Positions 8,650 to 45,660 of a stretch of 64,000 nucleotides of DNA are shown here, piece by piece. The position numbers were made by a program, and so were the translations under genes. Under the pieces are notes generated by a model that was not told the DNA's origin, did no database searches, and worked only from the letters and a program-made list of their open reading frames with translations. Source of the DNA: Vulcanimicrobium alpinum. Its GTDB lineage: Bacteria > Vulcanimicrobiota > Vulcanimicrobiia > Vulcanimicrobiales > Vulcanimicrobiaceae. Position 1 is the stretch's first letter. Each line of letters starts with the position of its first letter. Location of the stretch: assembly GCF_027923555.1 (NCBI RefSeq), contig NZ_AP025523.1:2608484-2672483 (forward strand), in the 5' to 3' direction.

Positions 8650-9131
8650 TCCCAGTTCGGCTTCTCCATGTGCTGCGAGAGCGGCACCGCGGCGAGATCG
8701 GGGTAGCCGCCCCAGCAGACGAACTCGAGCACGTTTCCGTCGGGATCGTGAAAGTAGATCGAGACGGCGTCGGTTCCGCGGTGCGTCCCCGGACCCCAGT
8801 ACGGGACGCCGTGCGCTTCCAGGTGACGTCGAACGGCGGGCAGATCGTTCGGACCGACCTTGAACGCGTGATGCGTCCCCTCCGGAGGCTTGCCGTTGAG
8901 TTCGTGGCCCAGCAGTTCGAAACGCTGGCCATTGTCCATCTCCATGAAGATGTGGATCGAGCGGCCGAGTTTGCGATCTTCGGGGCCGGCGCCAAAGACG
9001 TGCGGACCGTTGGCGTCGGTGAAGACGTGCGCGCTGAAGATCGTCTCGTAGAACGTCTGCGAGAGTTCGGGGTCTTTGCACGGCAGGCTGAAGTGGTCGA
9101 TGATCCCGATCCCGTGCGGGTTGTTTTTCAC
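8604..9131 (-). CDS. VOC-family protein (glyoxalase/extradiol dioxygenase fold)
   Basis: A 175-residue protein with two VOC half-domains: GIIDHFSLPCKDPELSQTFY at the start, then GTHHAFKVGPNDLPAVRRHL and SIYFHDPDGNVLEFVCWGGY. The last is the typical VOC metal-ligand region (His in IDHF, His in THHAF, Glu in VLEF). It could be a lyase, dioxygenase or antibiotic-binding protein; the sequence does not decide. The GTG start (9131) overlaps the upstream hydrolase stop (GTGA), so the two were co-translated. It overlaps the 3' end of the convergent LuxR gene. Confidence 0.85.
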   Translation of the reverse strand: MKNNPHGIGIIDHFSLPCKDPELSQTFYETIFSAHVFTDANGPHVFGAGPEDRKLGRSIHIFMEMDNGQRFELLGHELNGKPPEGTHHAFKVGPNDLPAVRRHLEAHGVPYWGPGTHRGTDAVSIYFHDPDGNVLEFVCWGGYPDLAAVPLSQHMEKPNWDYVWDPVARRAHAPT

Positions 9132-37311: not shown

Positions 37312-37342
37312 GGTGAAGTATATTCGCGGAGAGACGCGAATT
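37312..37342. promoter_or_regulatory. Divergent promoter/operator between Rieske operon and liv-type transporter
   Basis: An inverted repeat ATTCGCG-GAGAGA-CGCGAAT occupies 37322-37341. On the minus strand TATACT (37322-37317) is a good -10 box, and TTGCAA lies 18 bp upstream as a weak -35, so the dyad falls in the spacer of the Rieske promoter: a classic repressor position. The downstream MarR (42016-42483) is the obvious candidate. GAAGTAT here also resembles the element at 18239-18250. Confidence 0.5.
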
Positions 37343-37376
37343 GCAAGGTCCGACCCGACCGCCAGGAGGTATCGCC

Positions 37377-38558
37377 ATGGGGTTTCGCCCCGATCTCCGC
37401 TTCGCCGCCGCGGCGCTCGCCGCGCTCGTCGCCGCCGGCCCGCTCCCGCTTCACGCCGCCGACGAACCGTACGAGATCGACGCGGTCCTCTCGCTCACGG
37501 GGAGCGCCGCGTTCCTCGGCCAGGAAGAGAAACAGGCGTTCGAGGCGGTCGAGCGCGTGCAGAACGCGCGCGGCGGGATCCACGGCCGCAAGATCCGGTT
37601 CACGATCCTCGACGATCAGTCGAACCCGCAGAACGCGGTGCAACTGACGAACCAGATCATCGGCAAGCACGTCCCGGTGGTTCTCGGTTCGTCGCTCGTC
37701 GCGCAGTGCAACGCGATGGCGGCGCTGGTGAAAGAGAACGGGCCGGTGCAGTACTGCGTCTCGCCGGGGATCCATCCGGAACACGGCGGCTATACCTTCT
37801 CCTCGAGCGTCTCGACGCGCGACCAGGCGATCGCGATGGTGCGCTACTTTCACAAACGCGGCTGGAACAAAGTCGGTCTGCTGACCTCGACCGACGCGAC
37901 CGGTCAGGACGCCGAGCGGAATTTTCTCTACGCGGTGACGCAGCCCGAGGTGCGCGGCGTCGAGATCGTCGCGCGCGAACACTTCAACCCTACCGACGTC
38001 AGCGTCTCCGCGCAGCTCGAGCGGATCAAGAGCGCGAAGCCCGACGCGATGGTCGGCTGGACGACCGGGACGCCGTTCGGCACCGTCCTGCGCGGGATCA
38101 CGGAGACGGGGATCGACATCCCGGTCGGCGCCGGAAACGGCAACATCATCTATGCGCAGATGAAGCAGTACACGCAGTTTCTCCCCAAGACGCTGCTCTT
38201 CGCCGGCGTACAGTACTTCCGCGATCCCAAGGAGATCACCGGGCCGCTGAAGGCCGCGATCGAGACGTTCATCCGCGCGATCGCGCCGACGAAGCCCGAT
38301 CTCGGACAAGGGCTCGGCTACGATCCGGCGATGATCGTCGTCGACACGCTGCGCAAGCTGCCCGCGAACGCGAGCGCGAAGGATCTGCGCGACGCGATCC
38401 TCGCGACGCACGGCTACGTCGGGATCAACGGCGTCTACGACTTCCACAGCGGCGACAACCGCGGGCTGGGCGTGGGGAACGCCGTGCTCGTGCGCTACGA
38501 CGCCCAGCGCGAACTCTTCGTCCCCGTCAGCAAACCCGGCGGCGACCCGCTCAAGTAG
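37377..38558 (+). CDS. ABC transporter substrate-binding protein, branched-chain amino acid/aromatic acid type (LivK-like)
   Basis: A 393-residue periplasmic Leu/Ile/Val-binding-type receptor. Signal peptide RFAAAALAALVAAGPLPLHA lies near the N-terminus, then EIDAVLSLTGSAAFLGQEEK, QAFEAVERVQNARGGIHGRK and IRFTILDDQSNPQNAVQLTN in the standard Peripla_BP_6 pattern; late GYVGINGVYDFHSGDNRGLG. AGGAGG (37364-37369) precedes the ATG by 7 bp. Such receptors often bind aromatic or carboxylic acids; divergence from the phthalate-type operon suggests an aromatic-acid ligand (inference). First gene of the livK-livHM-livG-livF-marR unit. Confidence 0.92.
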   Translation: MGFRPDLRFAAAALAALVAAGPLPLHAADEPYEIDAVLSLTGSAAFLGQEEKQAFEAVERVQNARGGIHGRKIRFTILDDQSNPQNAVQLTNQIIGKHVPVVLGSSLVAQCNAMAALVKENGPVQYCVSPGIHPEHGGYTFSSSVSTRDQAIAMVRYFHKRGWNKVGLLTSTDATGQDAERNFLYAVTQPEVRGVEIVAREHFNPTDVSVSAQLERIKSAKPDAMVGWTTGTPFGTVLRGITETGIDIPVGAGNGNIIYAQMKQYTQFLPKTLLFAGVQYFRDPKEITGPLKAAIETFIRAIAPTKPDLGQGLGYDPAMIVVDTLRKLPANASAKDLRDAILATHGYVGINGVYDFHSGDNRGLGVGNAVLVRYDAQRELFVPVSKPGGDPLK

Positions 38559-38559
38559 C

Positions 38560-40455
38560 GTGCACGACGCGCTCGAGACCGCGATCGGCGGCCTCGTCGA
38601 GGGGTCGGTCTTCGCGCTCGTCGCGATCGGCTTCGCGCTGGTCTTCCGCGTCACCGGGACGGTGAATCTCGCGCAGGGTGCGTTCGTCGTCCTCGGCGCG
38701 CTCACGACGTACTCGTTCGAACAGACGCTGCACTGGCCGCTCCCGCTCGCGGTGCTCGGCGCGCTCGGCGTCGCGGCGGTCGTCGGCGCGCTGCTCGCAA
38801 TCGCCGTCCTCGCGCCGGGGCTGCGGCGCCTTCCTCCCAGCGGGATGGTGATGCTCACCAGCGGCCTGCTGACGGTCTTCGAAGGCGCCGCGCTGCTGGT
38901 GTGGGGGAGCCAGCCGTATCAGCTCCCGCCGTTCTCCGGCTACCATCCCGTCGCGTTCGCCGGGCTGCTGGTGCCGACGCAGTCGTTCTGGGATCTCGGG
39001 ATCACCGCGGTCGTCGTCGCGCTGTTGTGGTACGTCCTGCAGCGCACGACGTTCGGGCGCGCGCTGCGCGCGTGCGCCGAGAATCCCGCCGCCGCGACGC
39101 TGATGGGGATCGACGTCGCGCGCGTGCGCGTCCTCTCGTACACGGCGGCGTGCGTGCTGGGCGCGCTCTCGGGGATCGCGATCGGTCCGATCGTCTCGCT
39201 GCAGTTCGACGGCGGACGGTTCTTCACGGTGTACGGATTCATCTCGGTCGCGATCGGCGGACTCGGCTCGTTCGCCGGCGCGCTGCTCGGCGGACTCGGA
39301 CTGGGCCTCGTACAGCAGCTCGGCGCGTTCTACGTCTCGTCGATCTTCGCGACGACGCTGGCGATCGCGATCCTGATCGTCGTGCTCGTCTTCCGCCCCA
39401 GCGGCCTCTTCGGCCGCGGCGCGCGCCGCGAAGACAATCGCACCGGCGGCGCGCATGCGGGCGCGCTCGGCGCGCGCTTCGATCCGCGCATCGTGCGCGC
39501 GGCGGCGATCGCCGCGCCGGTCGTCATCCTGCTGCTCCCGCTGGTGCTCCCCGACGGCGCGCTCAGTTCGCTGGTCATCGCGGGGATCGTCTTCATCGCG
39601 GTGATGGGACTCGACGTGCTGATGGGATTTGCGGGGCAGGTGAGCCTCGGGCATGCGGCGTTCGTCGCGATCGGCGGCTACGTCGCCGCGATCGCGGCGG
39701 TGCGCTTTCACGTGCCGCCGCTGCTCGGCGCGCTGCTCGCGCTTGTCGTCTCGCTCGCGTGCGCCGCGGTCCTCGCCGGGCTCACCGTGCGCCTGCGCGG
39801 GCACTACATGGCGCTGGCGACGCTCGCGTTCGGTCTGCTCGTCGATTCGCTCGCGGTGGGGCTCGGCGACTGGACCGGCGGACCCTCCGGGCTCACCGGG
39901 ATCCCGCACGTCGCCTTCGGCGCCTTCGCGATCGACGGCCAGCGCGCGAACTACTATCTCGTGTGGGCGGTCGCGATCGTCGCGTTCGTCCTGCTCGCGA
40001 ACCTGCTCCGCTCGGATTTCGGACGCGCCCTGCGCGCGATCCGCACCGACCAGACCGCGGCGCTGGCGCTGGGAATCGACGTTCCGCGGTACAAGTTGTA
40101 CGCGTTTCTGATCAGCGCGGCGTGCGCGTCGATCGCCGGCAGTCTGTACGCGTATTACTTTCAGTTCATCTCGCCCGAGATGGTGAGCACGCCGCGCTCG
40201 CTCGAGTTCGTGACGATGCTGGTGATCGGCGGTGAAGGAACGCTGGCGGGGCCGCTGCTCGGCGTTTTGCTGCTGGTGCTGCTCCCCAACGCCGTGCAGG
40301 CGCTGCAGCAGGCGAAGACGCTCTTCGCCGGGCTGATCTTGGTCGGCGGCCTGCTGCTGCTGCCCTCCGGAATCCTTGGCGCGATCGCCGGCCTGCTGCG
40401 GCGCGCACCTGCGCGCGACGACGCCGCGGTGCCGGCACGCGGAGCGGCAACGTGA
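38560..40455 (+). CDS. Fused LivH-LivM ABC transporter permease
   Basis: A 631-residue fusion of the two branched-chain-type permeases. The LivH half (~1-290) has GTVNLAQGAFVVLGALTTYS, GRALRACAENPAAATLMGID and GLGSFAGALLGGLGLGL. The LivM half (~320-610) has MGLDVLMGFAGQVSLGHAAF, LRGHYMALATLAFGLLVDSL, GPSGLTGIP and GRALRAIRTDQTAALALGID. Each half retains its own ATPase-coupling EAA-like loop (RALRA.R.....A..LGID). The join (RPSGLFGRGARREDNRTGG) is a short charged linker. GTG start lies one base after the livK stop; the stop overlaps livG (GTGA). Confidence 0.93.
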   Translation: MHDALETAIGGLVEGSVFALVAIGFALVFRVTGTVNLAQGAFVVLGALTTYSFEQTLHWPLPLAVLGALGVAAVVGALLAIAVLAPGLRRLPPSGMVMLTSGLLTVFEGAALLVWGSQPYQLPPFSGYHPVAFAGLLVPTQSFWDLGITAVVVALLWYVLQRTTFGRALRACAENPAAATLMGIDVARVRVLSYTAACVLGALSGIAIGPIVSLQFDGGRFFTVYGFISVAIGGLGSFAGALLGGLGLGLVQQLGAFYVSSIFATTLAIAILIVVLVFRPSGLFGRGARREDNRTGGAHAGALGARFDPRIVRAAAIAAPVVILLLPLVLPDGALSSLVIAGIVFIAVMGLDVLMGFAGQVSLGHAAFVAIGGYVAAIAAVRFHVPPLLGALLALVVSLACAAVLAGLTVRLRGHYMALATLAFGLLVDSLAVGLGDWTGGPSGLTGIPHVAFGAFAIDGQRANYYLVWAVAIVAFVLLANLLRSDFGRALRAIRTDQTAALALGIDVPRYKLYAFLISAACASIAGSLYAYYFQFISPEMVSTPRSLEFVTMLVIGGEGTLAGPLLGVLLLVLLPNAVQALQQAKTLFAGLILVGGLLLLPSGILGAIAGLLRRAPARDDAAVPARGAAT

Positions 40456-41225
40456 ACGCTCCGGCCGCGCTGGCAGTCGAGCGCGTCTCGAAAGCGTTCG
40501 GCGGCGTGCAGGCGATTCGCGAGGTCTCGTTCGACGTGCCGGCCGGGACGCTGACCGCGCTGATCGGCCCCAACGGCGCCGGGAAGACGACGCTGTTCAA
40601 TCTCTTCACCAACCTCTATCGCACCGATTCCGGCAGCGTCGCGTTCTTCGGCGAACCGCTGGCGGGACGGCGCTCCGACGCGATCGCGCGGATGGGACTG
40701 GTGCGCACGTTCCAGACGGCGCGCGTCTTCGCGGGGATGACGGTGCTCGAAAACGTGCTCGCCGGCGCGCACATGACGGCGCGCGCGCCGGCGTTCGCGC
40801 AGGCGCTGCGCCTTCCCGCCGCAACGAACGACGAACGCGCGCTGGTCGCGCGCGCCGACGCGCTGCTCGACGCGCTCGGGATCGCGGAGCTGCGCGCGCG
40901 GCCGGCGGCGTCTCTGCCGCTGGGAACGCAGAAGATCGTCGAGCTCGCCCGCGCGCTCGTCGCGCGGCCGCGGATGCTGCTGCTCGACGAGCCGGCCGCC
41001 GGACTCAACGACGCCGAGACCGACGCGCTCGCGAGCCTGCTGCTCGCGATCCACCGCTCCGGGACGACCGTGGTCGTCGTCGAGCACAACATGTCGCTGG
41101 TGATGGGGATCGCCGATCGCGTCCTCGTCCTCGACGCCGGGGCGCTGATCGCATCCGGCACGCCCGCCGAGATCCAAGCGAATCCGGCGGTCGTCGCGGC
41201 GTACGTCGGGCAGGCCGCGCCGTGA
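40452..41225 (+). CDS. ABC transporter ATP-binding protein (LivG-like)
   Basis: A 257-residue ATPase: Walker A LIGPNGAGKTT, the LivG-specific GLVRTFQTARVFAGMTVLENV after it, signature region SLPLGTQKIVELARALVARP (a degenerate LSxGxQ, usual in LivG) and Walker B MLLLDEPAAGLNDAETDAL with the H-loop VVVVEHNMSLVMGIADRVLV. The C-terminal GTPAEIQANPAVVAAYVG is the LivG-type tail. GTG start overlaps the permease stop; its stop overlaps livF (GTGA). Confidence 0.94.
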   Translation: MNAPAALAVERVSKAFGGVQAIREVSFDVPAGTLTALIGPNGAGKTTLFNLFTNLYRTDSGSVAFFGEPLAGRRSDAIARMGLVRTFQTARVFAGMTVLENVLAGAHMTARAPAFAQALRLPAATNDERALVARADALLDALGIAELRARPAASLPLGTQKIVELARALVARPRMLLLDEPAAGLNDAETDALASLLLAIHRSGTTVVVVEHNMSLVMGIADRVLVLDAGALIASGTPAEIQANPAVVAAYVGQAAP

Positions 41226-42019
41226 TCCTCGAGATGCGCGACGTCGCCGCGGGCTACGGCGGCGTCAGTGCGCTGCGCGGGGTCACGCTGCACGTCGACG
41301 AGGGCGAGACCGTCGCGCTCGTCGGTGCCAACGGCGCCGGCAAATCGACGCTCCTGAAGTCGATCTCCGGACTCGTGCGCCCCACCGCGGGGACGATCGC
41401 GTTCGCCGGCGCTTCGCTGGCGGCGGTGCGCGCGCCGGCGCGCGTCGCGCTCGGGATCGCGCACGTCCCCGAAGGCCGCGACGTCTTCGGCAGCCTGAGC
41501 GTTCGCGAGAACCTCGATCTCGGCGCGTACGCGCTGGGACGCCGCCGCTCGGCGCGCGAGTTGGACGCGCTGCGCGACGCCGTGCTGGAACGGTTTCCGG
41601 TGCTGCGCGATCGGCTCGAGCGTTCGGCCGCCGAGCTCTCCGGCGGACAGCAGCAGATGCTCGCGATCGGCCGCGGGCTGATGGCGAAGCCGCGGCTGCT
41701 GCTGCTCGACGAACCGTCGCTCGGCCTCGCGCCTTCGCTCGTCGATCAGATCTTCGCGATCGTGCGCGATCTGCGCGAACTCGGCGTCACGGTCCTGATC
41801 GCCGAGCAGAACGCGCGGATGACGCTCGCGATCGCCGATCGCGGCTACGTGCTGGAAAACGGCGCCGTGGTCGCCGCCGACACCGGCCGCGCCCTCCTCG
41901 CTTCGCCGCAGATCGTCGAGCGCTACTTGGGGATCGGCGCCGGCGCGTCGGCGCACGCGCGCGAAAGCACCGCCGGCGCGCTCGCCTCGGCGCTGCGCGC
42001 GATCCTGCGGGAACCGTGA
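41222..42019 (+). CDS. ABC transporter ATP-binding protein (LivF-like)
   Basis: A 265-residue ATPase: Walker A LVGANGAGKSTLLKSISGLV, IAHVPEGRDVFGSLSVRENL (LivF-type), signature AAELSGGQQQMLAIGRGLMA, Walker B LLLLDEPSLGLAPSLVDQIF and H-loop-position VTVLIAEQNARMTLAIADRG (Gln in place of His, normal in LivF). The C-terminus extends ~25 residues beyond typical LivF. GTG start (41222) overlaps livG by GTGA and its stop overlaps the MarR start in the same way. Confidence 0.94.
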   Translation: MILEMRDVAAGYGGVSALRGVTLHVDEGETVALVGANGAGKSTLLKSISGLVRPTAGTIAFAGASLAAVRAPARVALGIAHVPEGRDVFGSLSVRENLDLGAYALGRRRSARELDALRDAVLERFPVLRDRLERSAAELSGGQQQMLAIGRGLMAKPRLLLLDEPSLGLAPSLVDQIFAIVRDLRELGVTVLIAEQNARMTLAIADRGYVLENGAVVAADTGRALLASPQIVERYLGIGAGASAHARESTAGALASALRAILREP

Positions 42020-43662: not shown

Positions 43663-45660
43663 CTAGTTCGCCTCGTCGGTGAACTTCGCGTACCAGTGGG
43701 TGCCGTCGCAGAACGGCTTGTTCTTCGAGTGGCCGCAGCGGCACAGCGCGTAGTGTTCCGTCGACGCGCCGGCGTTGCGCTGCTCGTGCAGCAATTCGAT
43801 GCCGCCCGTCACGTGGTACGGCCCGTCTTTCGAGACGTAGATGCCCGGCGCGCGGTCGACGTCGCGGTGCGCGACGCCCCTTTTCGAATAGCTCAACGCG
43901 CCCGAGGGGCACTGCTGCACGATGTCGATGATCTGCTGCGCCGGCGCACCGTTCGGATCGATCCAGGGTTCCTGACCGTTGCGGAACACCGACGGGAGGT
44001 TGTCGCTGCAGTTGCCGGAGTGGCAGCACGTGCCGCGGTTGTCGTGGATCGTCACCTCGGCGCCGACGTAGTCGACGCGGCGATCCGGCGTGCGATCGGG
44101 CAATTTGCCGCTGCTGAAGTGCGCGTCGGCATGCGAGCCGTCGCAGAACGGCTTCATCCGCGACTGCCCGCAGCGGCACAGCGCCATCTCCGTGCGCGCG
44201 TCCAGCGTCTCCCCCTTCGAGTTCGTAAGCGAAGCGACGTTGGTGACGAGGTACGGGCCGTTGTGTTCCGGCGTGATCGTCGCCCCGATCGGCGTTTCGA
44301 ACGCGGCGATCTCCGCCTCGGTCGCTGCGACGCCGCGCGGCGAGAGCGCACCGATCTTCGCGGCGATGTCCTGCAGGGCGGCGGCGGCCTCTTCGATCTC
44401 GGGAGGGACGGCGAAGTTGGTGCGGATGTAGGCGGCCTTGCGCGCGAGCTGGCCCAGACGTTCGGCAAAGAAGATCCACGCCGAGGCCTTGTGAGGGAGG
44501 AGATGGACGTCGCGGTTGTAGCCGAAGCCGGGACCGGCGGAGAGCCCCGGATACGGCGCGCCGGCGGGCATCTTCGTGAGCGCCTCGCCGAGCGGGCGCA
44601 GCGCCGAGGCCATCATCCGGATCGTTCCGCGCGAGAGCACCTCCAGTTCGCGTTCGGTTTCGTCGGTGTGGGCGAAGAAGCGCAGCAGCATCAGCAGCAT
44701 CGTGTCGTATGCGACGTTGTAGAGGTCCGCCACGTTGTGCGTCAGCTCGTCGCGCAGGATCGTCCCGCCGTTCGCATCCTCATAGAAGTGCGTCATCGGG
44801 TTGGGGACGATTTTTCGCACCGGATCGAAGATCGTTCCGGCCTCACGGGCACGCGAGACCTCGGCTTCGTACGCGATGCGGATCCCGTCGAACACGCAGA
44901 AGTGCGCGTCCGGGTGGTCCGTCGACGGCGACTCGCCCTGCGAGACGATCATCTCGATCGCGCGGCACGCCGAGTCGCGGTCGACCACGGCGATCAATTC
45001 GCCGTCGAGATCGACGAAGCGCGCGTTGGCCTGTGCTTCGCGCGGACCGATGAACAGCACGTCCTCGGGGATGCACCGGAATCCGCTTTCGATCTTGTGA
45101 TAAAACTCGCCGACGGTCCGAAAATCGATCTCGAACGGTTCGACCGCGCAGTGCGTCGGCATCGCATCGATCTCCGCCTCGCGCTCGCGCACCACCCGCG
45201 ACCGGATCTCGTCGTACGCCGACTGCTTCTCCGCCGCGAGGACGCCGGCTTCGGGCATCTCGTAGCACACGAGCCGCTCGATGAGCCCGCGCGAAAACGG
45301 CTCGAGCGACAATTCGATCCCGAACGGAAACGCTTCGGGGGGCATCGGAAAGTTCGTGCGTCGGAAGTGCGGCGCCCCGCCGATCGCGGTGAGCATGTTC
45401 GTCACCTGCGCGAGGTGCAGCATCTCCTCGATCGCGACCCCGGCGAGTTTGCGTTTCCAGTCGCGCACCATCCGCGCTTGCTCGACGGTGAGGCCGCCTT
45501 CGTCGACGTCGCTCTTGAGCGAGTGCGCGGCGTAAAGGTAGACGCACGCCAGCCCGTGCTCGAGCTCGCTTGCGCGCGAGAGCAGATAGATCAGTTCTTC
45601 ACGCGTGGTGACGGGCGCGATGTGCGCACGATCGGGCGCCGCAGTTTCGAGGATCGACAT
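43663..45660 (-). CDS. Ferritin-like (VioB-type) protein fused to CDGSH, Fer4_19 and second CDGSH iron-sulfur domains
   Basis: A 665-residue multi-domain metalloprotein. Residues ~15-250 form a ferritin-like helical domain with acidic/His helix motifs (ASELEHGLACVYLYAAHSLK; AGVAIEEMLHLAQVTNMLTA), as in VioB-related ferritin-like proteins. A helical middle (~300-430) follows. A first CDGSH [2Fe-2S] motif CRCGQSRMKPFCDGSH (~490-505) comes next. A divergent ferredoxin-like Fer4_19 segment then reads GTCCHSGNCSDNL and QQCPSGALSYSKRG. A second CDGSH motif CRCGHSKNKPFCDGTH lies near the C-terminus. The union of a di-iron-type oxidase/oxygenase domain with three Fe-S centres suggests internal electron delivery. 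No signal peptide is seen. Function is unknown. Confidence 0.85.
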   Translation of the reverse strand: MSILETAAPDRAHIAPVTTREELIYLLSRASELEHGLACVYLYAAHSLKSDVDEGGLTVEQARMVRDWKRKLAGVAIEEMLHLAQVTNMLTAIGGAPHFRRTNFPMPPEAFPFGIELSLEPFSRGLIERLVCYEMPEAGVLAAEKQSAYDEIRSRVVREREAEIDAMPTHCAVEPFEIDFRTVGEFYHKIESGFRCIPEDVLFIGPREAQANARFVDLDGELIAVVDRDSACRAIEMIVSQGESPSTDHPDAHFCVFDGIRIAYEAEVSRAREAGTIFDPVRKIVPNPMTHFYEDANGGTILRDELTHNVADLYNVAYDTMLLMLLRFFAHTDETERELEVLSRGTIRMMASALRPLGEALTKMPAGAPYPGLSAGPGFGYNRDVHLLPHKASAWIFFAERLGQLARKAAYIRTNFAVPPEIEEAAAALQDIAAKIGALSPRGVAATEAEIAAFETPIGATITPEHNGPYLVTNVASLTNSKGETLDARTEMALCRCGQSRMKPFCDGSHADAHFSSGKLPDRTPDRRVDYVGAEVTIHDNRGTCCHSGNCSDNLPSVFRNGQEPWIDPNGAPAQQIIDIVQQCPSGALSYSKRGVAHRDVDRAPGIYVSKDGPYHVTGGIELLHEQRNAGASTEHYALCRCGHSKNKPFCDGTHWYAKFTDEAN

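Follow-up and report, generated by a model that had tools for sequence, protein, structure and literature searches.

One gene in the window (the whole 64,000-nucleotide stretch of Vulcanimicrobium alpinum DNA analysed here) joins a ferritin-like half to a C-terminal iron-sulfur cassette, in which a ferredoxin-type domain lies between two CDGSH domains. We give a probability of about 50% to the reading that this fusion is a soluble multi-cofactor oxidoreductase, with a diiron head reactive toward O2 or H2O2 that would be supplied with electrons by the cassette, a type 7 CISD of subtype CDC. The gene is placed as follows:

43663..45660, minus strand: the whole fusion gene (P0002), an ORF of 665 aa with its ATG at 45660 and with known orthologues

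The ORF is a real gene, because orthologues with the same domain order exist and the dN/dS values obtained from four pairs are low (0.30, 0.15, 0.09 and 0.03). Scanning the whole protein against Pfam placed Ferritin-like, CDGSH, Fer4_19 and CDGSH domains in that order from the N-terminus, each far over its cut-off: 120.7 bits for PF12902 at aa 27-260 (gathering cut-off 22.3), 121 bits for the two zf-CDGSH domains (cut-off 29.5), and 76 bits for Fer4_19 at aa 531-593 (cut-off 24). Together with a partial VioB match, these hits bear out the earlier note, which had described a VioB-type ferritin-like domain, two NEET motifs and a divergent ferredoxin between them in one polypeptide. More than 20 genomes of the phylum carry this architecture, at 51-76% identity, as do one bin labelled Chloroflexi (locus L037) and, at 57-58% identity, three Mucilaginibacter species; among relatives with a name, the closest belong to Vulcanimicrobiota/Eremiobacterota. 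None of the 17 proposed metal ligands varies among the 26 fusion proteins, whereas nearby residues such as D507, S509, D652 and T654 do.

To define the putative metal site of the head we aligned 13 diverse PF12902 proteins: the window protein and others 22-64% identical to it, including a RebD/StaD-like protein from Nocardiopsis. The invariant columns were L27, E34, Y41, S47, E79, M80, H82, N88, A92, G94, E134, P136, Y187, A234, G242, E243, H253, F257 and F379, so that, of all acidic, basic, His and Cys residues, just four Glu and two His were invariant. These six, each invariant in all 13 proteins and in 26 of 26 fusions, are listed with the segments that hold them:

44344..45603, minus strand: VioB-C-terminal-like helical half, aa 20-439 (AF2 model, VioB partial match)
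44881..45582, minus strand: Pfam Ferritin-like PF12902, aa 27-260, the single PF12902 gene of the host genome (one contig, 3.5 Mb)
45559..45561, minus strand: E34, proposed metal ligand of helix 1
45415..45426, minus strand: E79-x-x-H82 (ExxH), proposed metal ligands of helix 2 (QEMLH in PDB 3hl1)
45259..45261, minus strand: E134, proposed metal ligand of the third helix
44932..44934, minus strand: E243 of a QGE motif, proposed metal ligand (QGEG in 3hl1)
44902..44904, minus strand: H253, proposed metal ligand where helix 253-274 begins (also in 3hl1)

Judged by residue conservation, these four Glu and two His, two of them forming an ExxH at 79-82, correspond to the classic set of ferritin-type diiron ligands. 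The earlier note had named a lack of metal ligands in the ferritin-like helices as grounds for abandoning its idea; at sequence level, six of six Glu/His are present. An alternative ExxH pair in helix 4, E185/H188, was rejected, as both residues vary across the fusions and E243 and H253 are invariant instead. The AF2 model (mean pLDDT 82.4) predicts helices at 20-47, 59-92, 228-242, 253-274, 305-329, 336-361, 391-415 and 420-439, with the six proposed ligands in predicted helices or at helix ends, and a linker at 443-457 with pLDDT below 50; its pTM is only 0.65, so the placement of the domains relative to one another is unsure. The best fold match of the modelled head was PDB 3hl1 (E 1e-6), the Caulobacter ferritin-like protein CC_0557; cage ferritins matched at E >0.1. 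The 3hl1 protein has the same ligand motifs, but it stands alone and has no Fe-S domains; our literature search found no paper on its function. RebD/StaD enzymes have been described as heme-containing, and the head could therefore use heme. The Nocardiopsis RebD/StaD-like protein (L135:3036-6275) lies in a plasmid operon with FAD oxidoreductases, and its C-terminal half has all six of the diiron-type residues; on a Nostoc plasmid (L100:6031-10872) a radical SAM gene is flanked by two PF12902-type ferritin-like genes, possibly as a biosynthetic unit.

The middle domain of the cassette, Fer4_19, was formerly called DUF1271. The class type 7 CISD, with a subtype CDC ordered CDGSH-DUF1271-CDGSH, was named in 2011 (Lin et al., PMC3174974). 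By domain content and ligands the C-terminal ~205 aa (aa 460-665) are a member of this subtype: the three domains stand in the same order, both CDGSH motifs have a complete 3Cys-1His set in 26 of 26 fusions, and identity to members that stand alone or have other fusion partners, the stand-alone ones spread over many phyla and archaea, is 42-61%. The window protein differs from those of PMC3174974 in the 440-aa ferritin-like half fused in front. The cassette maps as follows:

44128..44262, minus strand: CDGSH domain 1 (C495, C497, C506, H510; Pfam; ligands in 26/26)
43882..44070, minus strand: Fer4_19 (C545, H547, C551, C584; Pfam; residues in 26/26)
43693..43827, minus strand: CDGSH domain 2 (C640, C642, C651, H655; Pfam; ligands in 26/26)

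The AF2 model also matched a type 4 CISD (3tbm). In Fer4_19 the second canonical Cys position is replaced by S, A, F or Y among the 26 fusions, whereas H547 is invariant; because this Cys is replaced, the sequence suggests a [3Fe-4S] centre, or a [4Fe-4S] centre with a non-Cys ligand. A second CDC-type CDGSH/Fer4_19 protein is encoded in the host genome outside the window (C1:2522325-2523032), in an open frame of 310 aa, and is deeply diverged, at only about one third identity.

Head and cassette have probably been paired at least three times, in the window lineage, in actinobacteria and in Asticcacaulis, as judged from domain order and a tree of CDC sequences. On a Streptomyces plasmid (L098) the ORFs for the ferritin-like part and for the CDC part share four bases, GTGA, with the stop at 9026 and the GTG at 9023; the Nonomuraea homologue of this pair is a single chain of 581 aa. 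Fully supported branches set the actinobacterial pair apart from the window clade, with long branches as a caveat. The Asticcacaulis fusion has a different order: Ferritin-like, Fer4_19, CDGSH, CDGSH.

The same cassette is found on other redox domains. It is fused to glutamate-synthase FMN domains (L053, L057, L068 and L070), in a Methanosarcinales bin with a rubredoxin before the FMN domain (CDGSH-Fer4_19-CDGSH-rubredoxin-glutamate synthase FMN domain; L055:669-2876), to Rieske and GltS (L062), and to Rieske alone (L067). One Gemmatimonadales bin and one Oligoflexales bin join CDGSH-Fer4_19-CDGSH-Rieske to a pyruvate-oxidase-like TPP enzyme (L066:7989-10619 and L069:7968-10583). Two genomes of one bacterial family carry it on a truncated (Bac_globin) hemoglobin (L031:748-2568 and L032:742-2601, both on the minus strand). 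That the cassette moves electrons we argue mainly from the nature of its partners, which are redox catalysts or one-electron carriers.

The globin fusions bear on the history of the head. The Vulcanimicrobiota fusions fall into a single clade of the CDC tree (support 100/98), and the two globin fusions group with the ferritin-like fusion of the Chloroflexi bin (97/95) in a group nested within the ferritin-like group (94/78 at the base). The globin proteins retain a vestige of the linker helix (aa ~399-435), with a family profile score that exceeds those of 400 shuffles; when the N-terminus of a globin fusion was compared by BLAST with the linker alone, no significant match resulted. The simplest reading of these sequences is that the cassette lost a diiron head and acquired a heme globin. 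No paper on CDGSH with truncated hemoglobin was found in the part of the literature searched.

In the mechanism that we propose, E34, E79, H82, E134, E243 and H253 would hold a ferritin-type diiron (or other di-metal) site in the PF12902 head. This site would react with O2 or H2O2, either removing it as a peroxidase or oxidase, like rubrerythrin, or oxidising a small substrate. The CDC module, with a [2Fe-2S] NEET cluster, the divergent 3-Cys [3/4Fe-4S] centre and a second [2Fe-2S] NEET cluster, would hand single electrons from a reductase to the di-metal site. Removal of peroxide or O2 is our tentative preference for the reaction, a choice more readily doubted than the oxidoreductase reading itself. 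We infer the metal content, the flow and direction of electrons and the reaction, and favour NEET wiring of a diiron site because the ligands are invariant, the parts were paired independently and the cassette is reused with other redox domains. A self-sufficient di-metal oxidase had been raised in the earlier note; the complete set of four Glu and two His and the complete [2Fe-2S] ligands support the possibility of a self-sufficient di-metal enzyme.

Fusions of this general kind have precedents in the [FeFe] hydrogenase-rubrerythrin chimera CperHydR (PMC11926857), a flavodiiron-rubredoxin-reductase fusion (PMC9364112) and an AlkB fusion (PMC10113152), the first two being Fe-S/diiron fusions that reduce peroxide or O2. 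CperHydR would, if our reading is right, resemble the window protein in that fused redox domains feed a diiron site; it differs in its electron-entry part, which is non-homologous, with rubredoxin and hydrogenase in place of NEET and Fer4_19. Pfam gave no Rubredoxin or Rubrerythrin match in the fusion; rubrerythrin has a rubredoxin Fe(Cys)4 domain beside its diiron domain.

The surroundings of the gene vary between genomes. In the window a UDP-galactopyranose mutase gene converges on the fusion gene, 10 bp apart, and a TonB receptor gene, which is real, is transcribed divergently from it; a neighbouring reading frame, previously listed as an unknown membrane protein, matches nothing in Pfam or NCBIfam and is absent from a codon-usage gene call. 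None of the close neighbours recurs in 26 related loci, a same-genus genome included, where the only other match to the window is a distant ABC-transporter ATPase and no reductase gene is conserved nearby. The proposed iron-related unit with the TonB receptor and the membrane protein is accordingly not supported, and a conserved operon with the receptor, found in 0 of 26 loci, was rejected. In all three Mucilaginibacter loci, and only in that genus, a Dps-like gene lies downstream in the same direction (gaps of 56 and 65 bp in the two measured, the same ORF in place in the third), and in some Vulcanimicrobiota (L083 and L047) there is an aquaporin gene 25-29 bp upstream. The Dps and aquaporin neighbours are a weak pointer to oxidative stress. 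Also in the window, ORF translations alone indicate at 37341-42019 what looks like an ABC transporter operon of the branched-chain-amino-acid type, with a binding protein, permeases and two ATPases, next to a MarR-like gene.

The evidence can also be read in other ways. A biosynthetic oxidase of the VioB/RebD/StaD kind would act on a small molecule, derived from an amino acid or otherwise, by coupling or oxidising it, perhaps with the help of heme, and would draw no more than reducing equivalents from the Fe-S cassette. The NCBIfam VioB profile TIGR04492 does match part of the head (profile 791-975 on aa 223-416), the C-terminal half of VioB is homologous to it, and the RebD/StaD-like protein, in an indole-alkaloid-type operon, shares all six Glu/His; among stand-alone relatives, one is in an operon with a GMC oxidoreductase and another is beside a radical SAM gene. 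The match, however, scores 87.6 bits against an equivalog cut-off of 1250, and the window protein lacks the VioB N-terminal half and has an Fe-S cassette added. Near the fusion gene, in a neighbourhood that is not conserved, there is no tryptophan oxidase gene cluster as in VioB, nor were other pathway genes recognised. By profile and domain content the head is not VioB, and we consider a biosynthetic role unlikely.

An iron or Fe-S repair or storage device, in which the head buffers iron moved into or out of the NEET clusters, would suit the transferable clusters of characterised eukaryotic CISDs and the adjoining Dps gene of Mucilaginibacter, but the same cassette sits on FMN, TPP and globin domains without a storage role, and we hold this to be improbable. 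Iron storage, which the earlier note had suggested, is itself unlikely because there is no PF00210 match and the fold is far closer to the PF12902 structure than to cage ferritins; an iron-storage ferritin was rejected on the same grounds. A redox or NO/O2 sensor signalling to a partner would account for the presence of several labile Fe-S centres on a single chain and for the pairing of the cassette with diiron-type as well as globin heads; Pfam, however, shows no DNA-binding, kinase or other output domain and no conserved regulator is adjacent, leaving a sensor quite improbable. Least credible is a chance or decaying joining of genes with no joint function. Such a joining would fit the patchy distribution (PF12902 in 24 of 148 genomes of the phylum, a full-length match in 1 of the 301 genomes sampled from the Mucilaginibacter family), yet the low dN/dS, the ligands invariant in 26 proteins and the repeated pairing all speak against it.

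Each of the parts was known before. A combination of CDGSH and Ferritin-like domains has been listed for bacteria (Sengupta et al. 2018, PMC5859297), in a text whose accessible portion gives no ligand analysis, no function and no order with Fer4_19 in one chain. The statement that no function is known for this layout thus stands for function, our literature search having found no test of the fusion's activity, but the layout itself was already on record, the CDC part in PMC3174974 and the CDGSH/Ferritin-like combination in PMC5859297. None of head exchange, repeated pairing and a diiron prediction for the whole family appeared in the literature searched, of which coverage was partial; the ligand set, the invariance of all 17 ligands, the probable repeated pairing, the range of other domains on the cassette and the globin branch inside the ferritin-like group are reported here as new.

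A broader reading, which we put forward as a conjecture that may well fail, is that CDC is a general plug-in electron-delivery cassette, repeatedly joined to unrelated O2- or substrate-reactive heads in bacteria and archaea, with diiron and globin heads exchanged in one clade and the window protein as the first recognised NEET-wired diiron oxidase/peroxidase. If this is true, type 7 CISDs would gain a function. The diiron prediction would extend to the entire PF12902 family, including chromopyrrolic acid synthases described as heme enzymes. For the role of prokaryotic CDGSH/NEET proteins, electron transfer from NEET to a catalytic metal would become testable in one purified protein.
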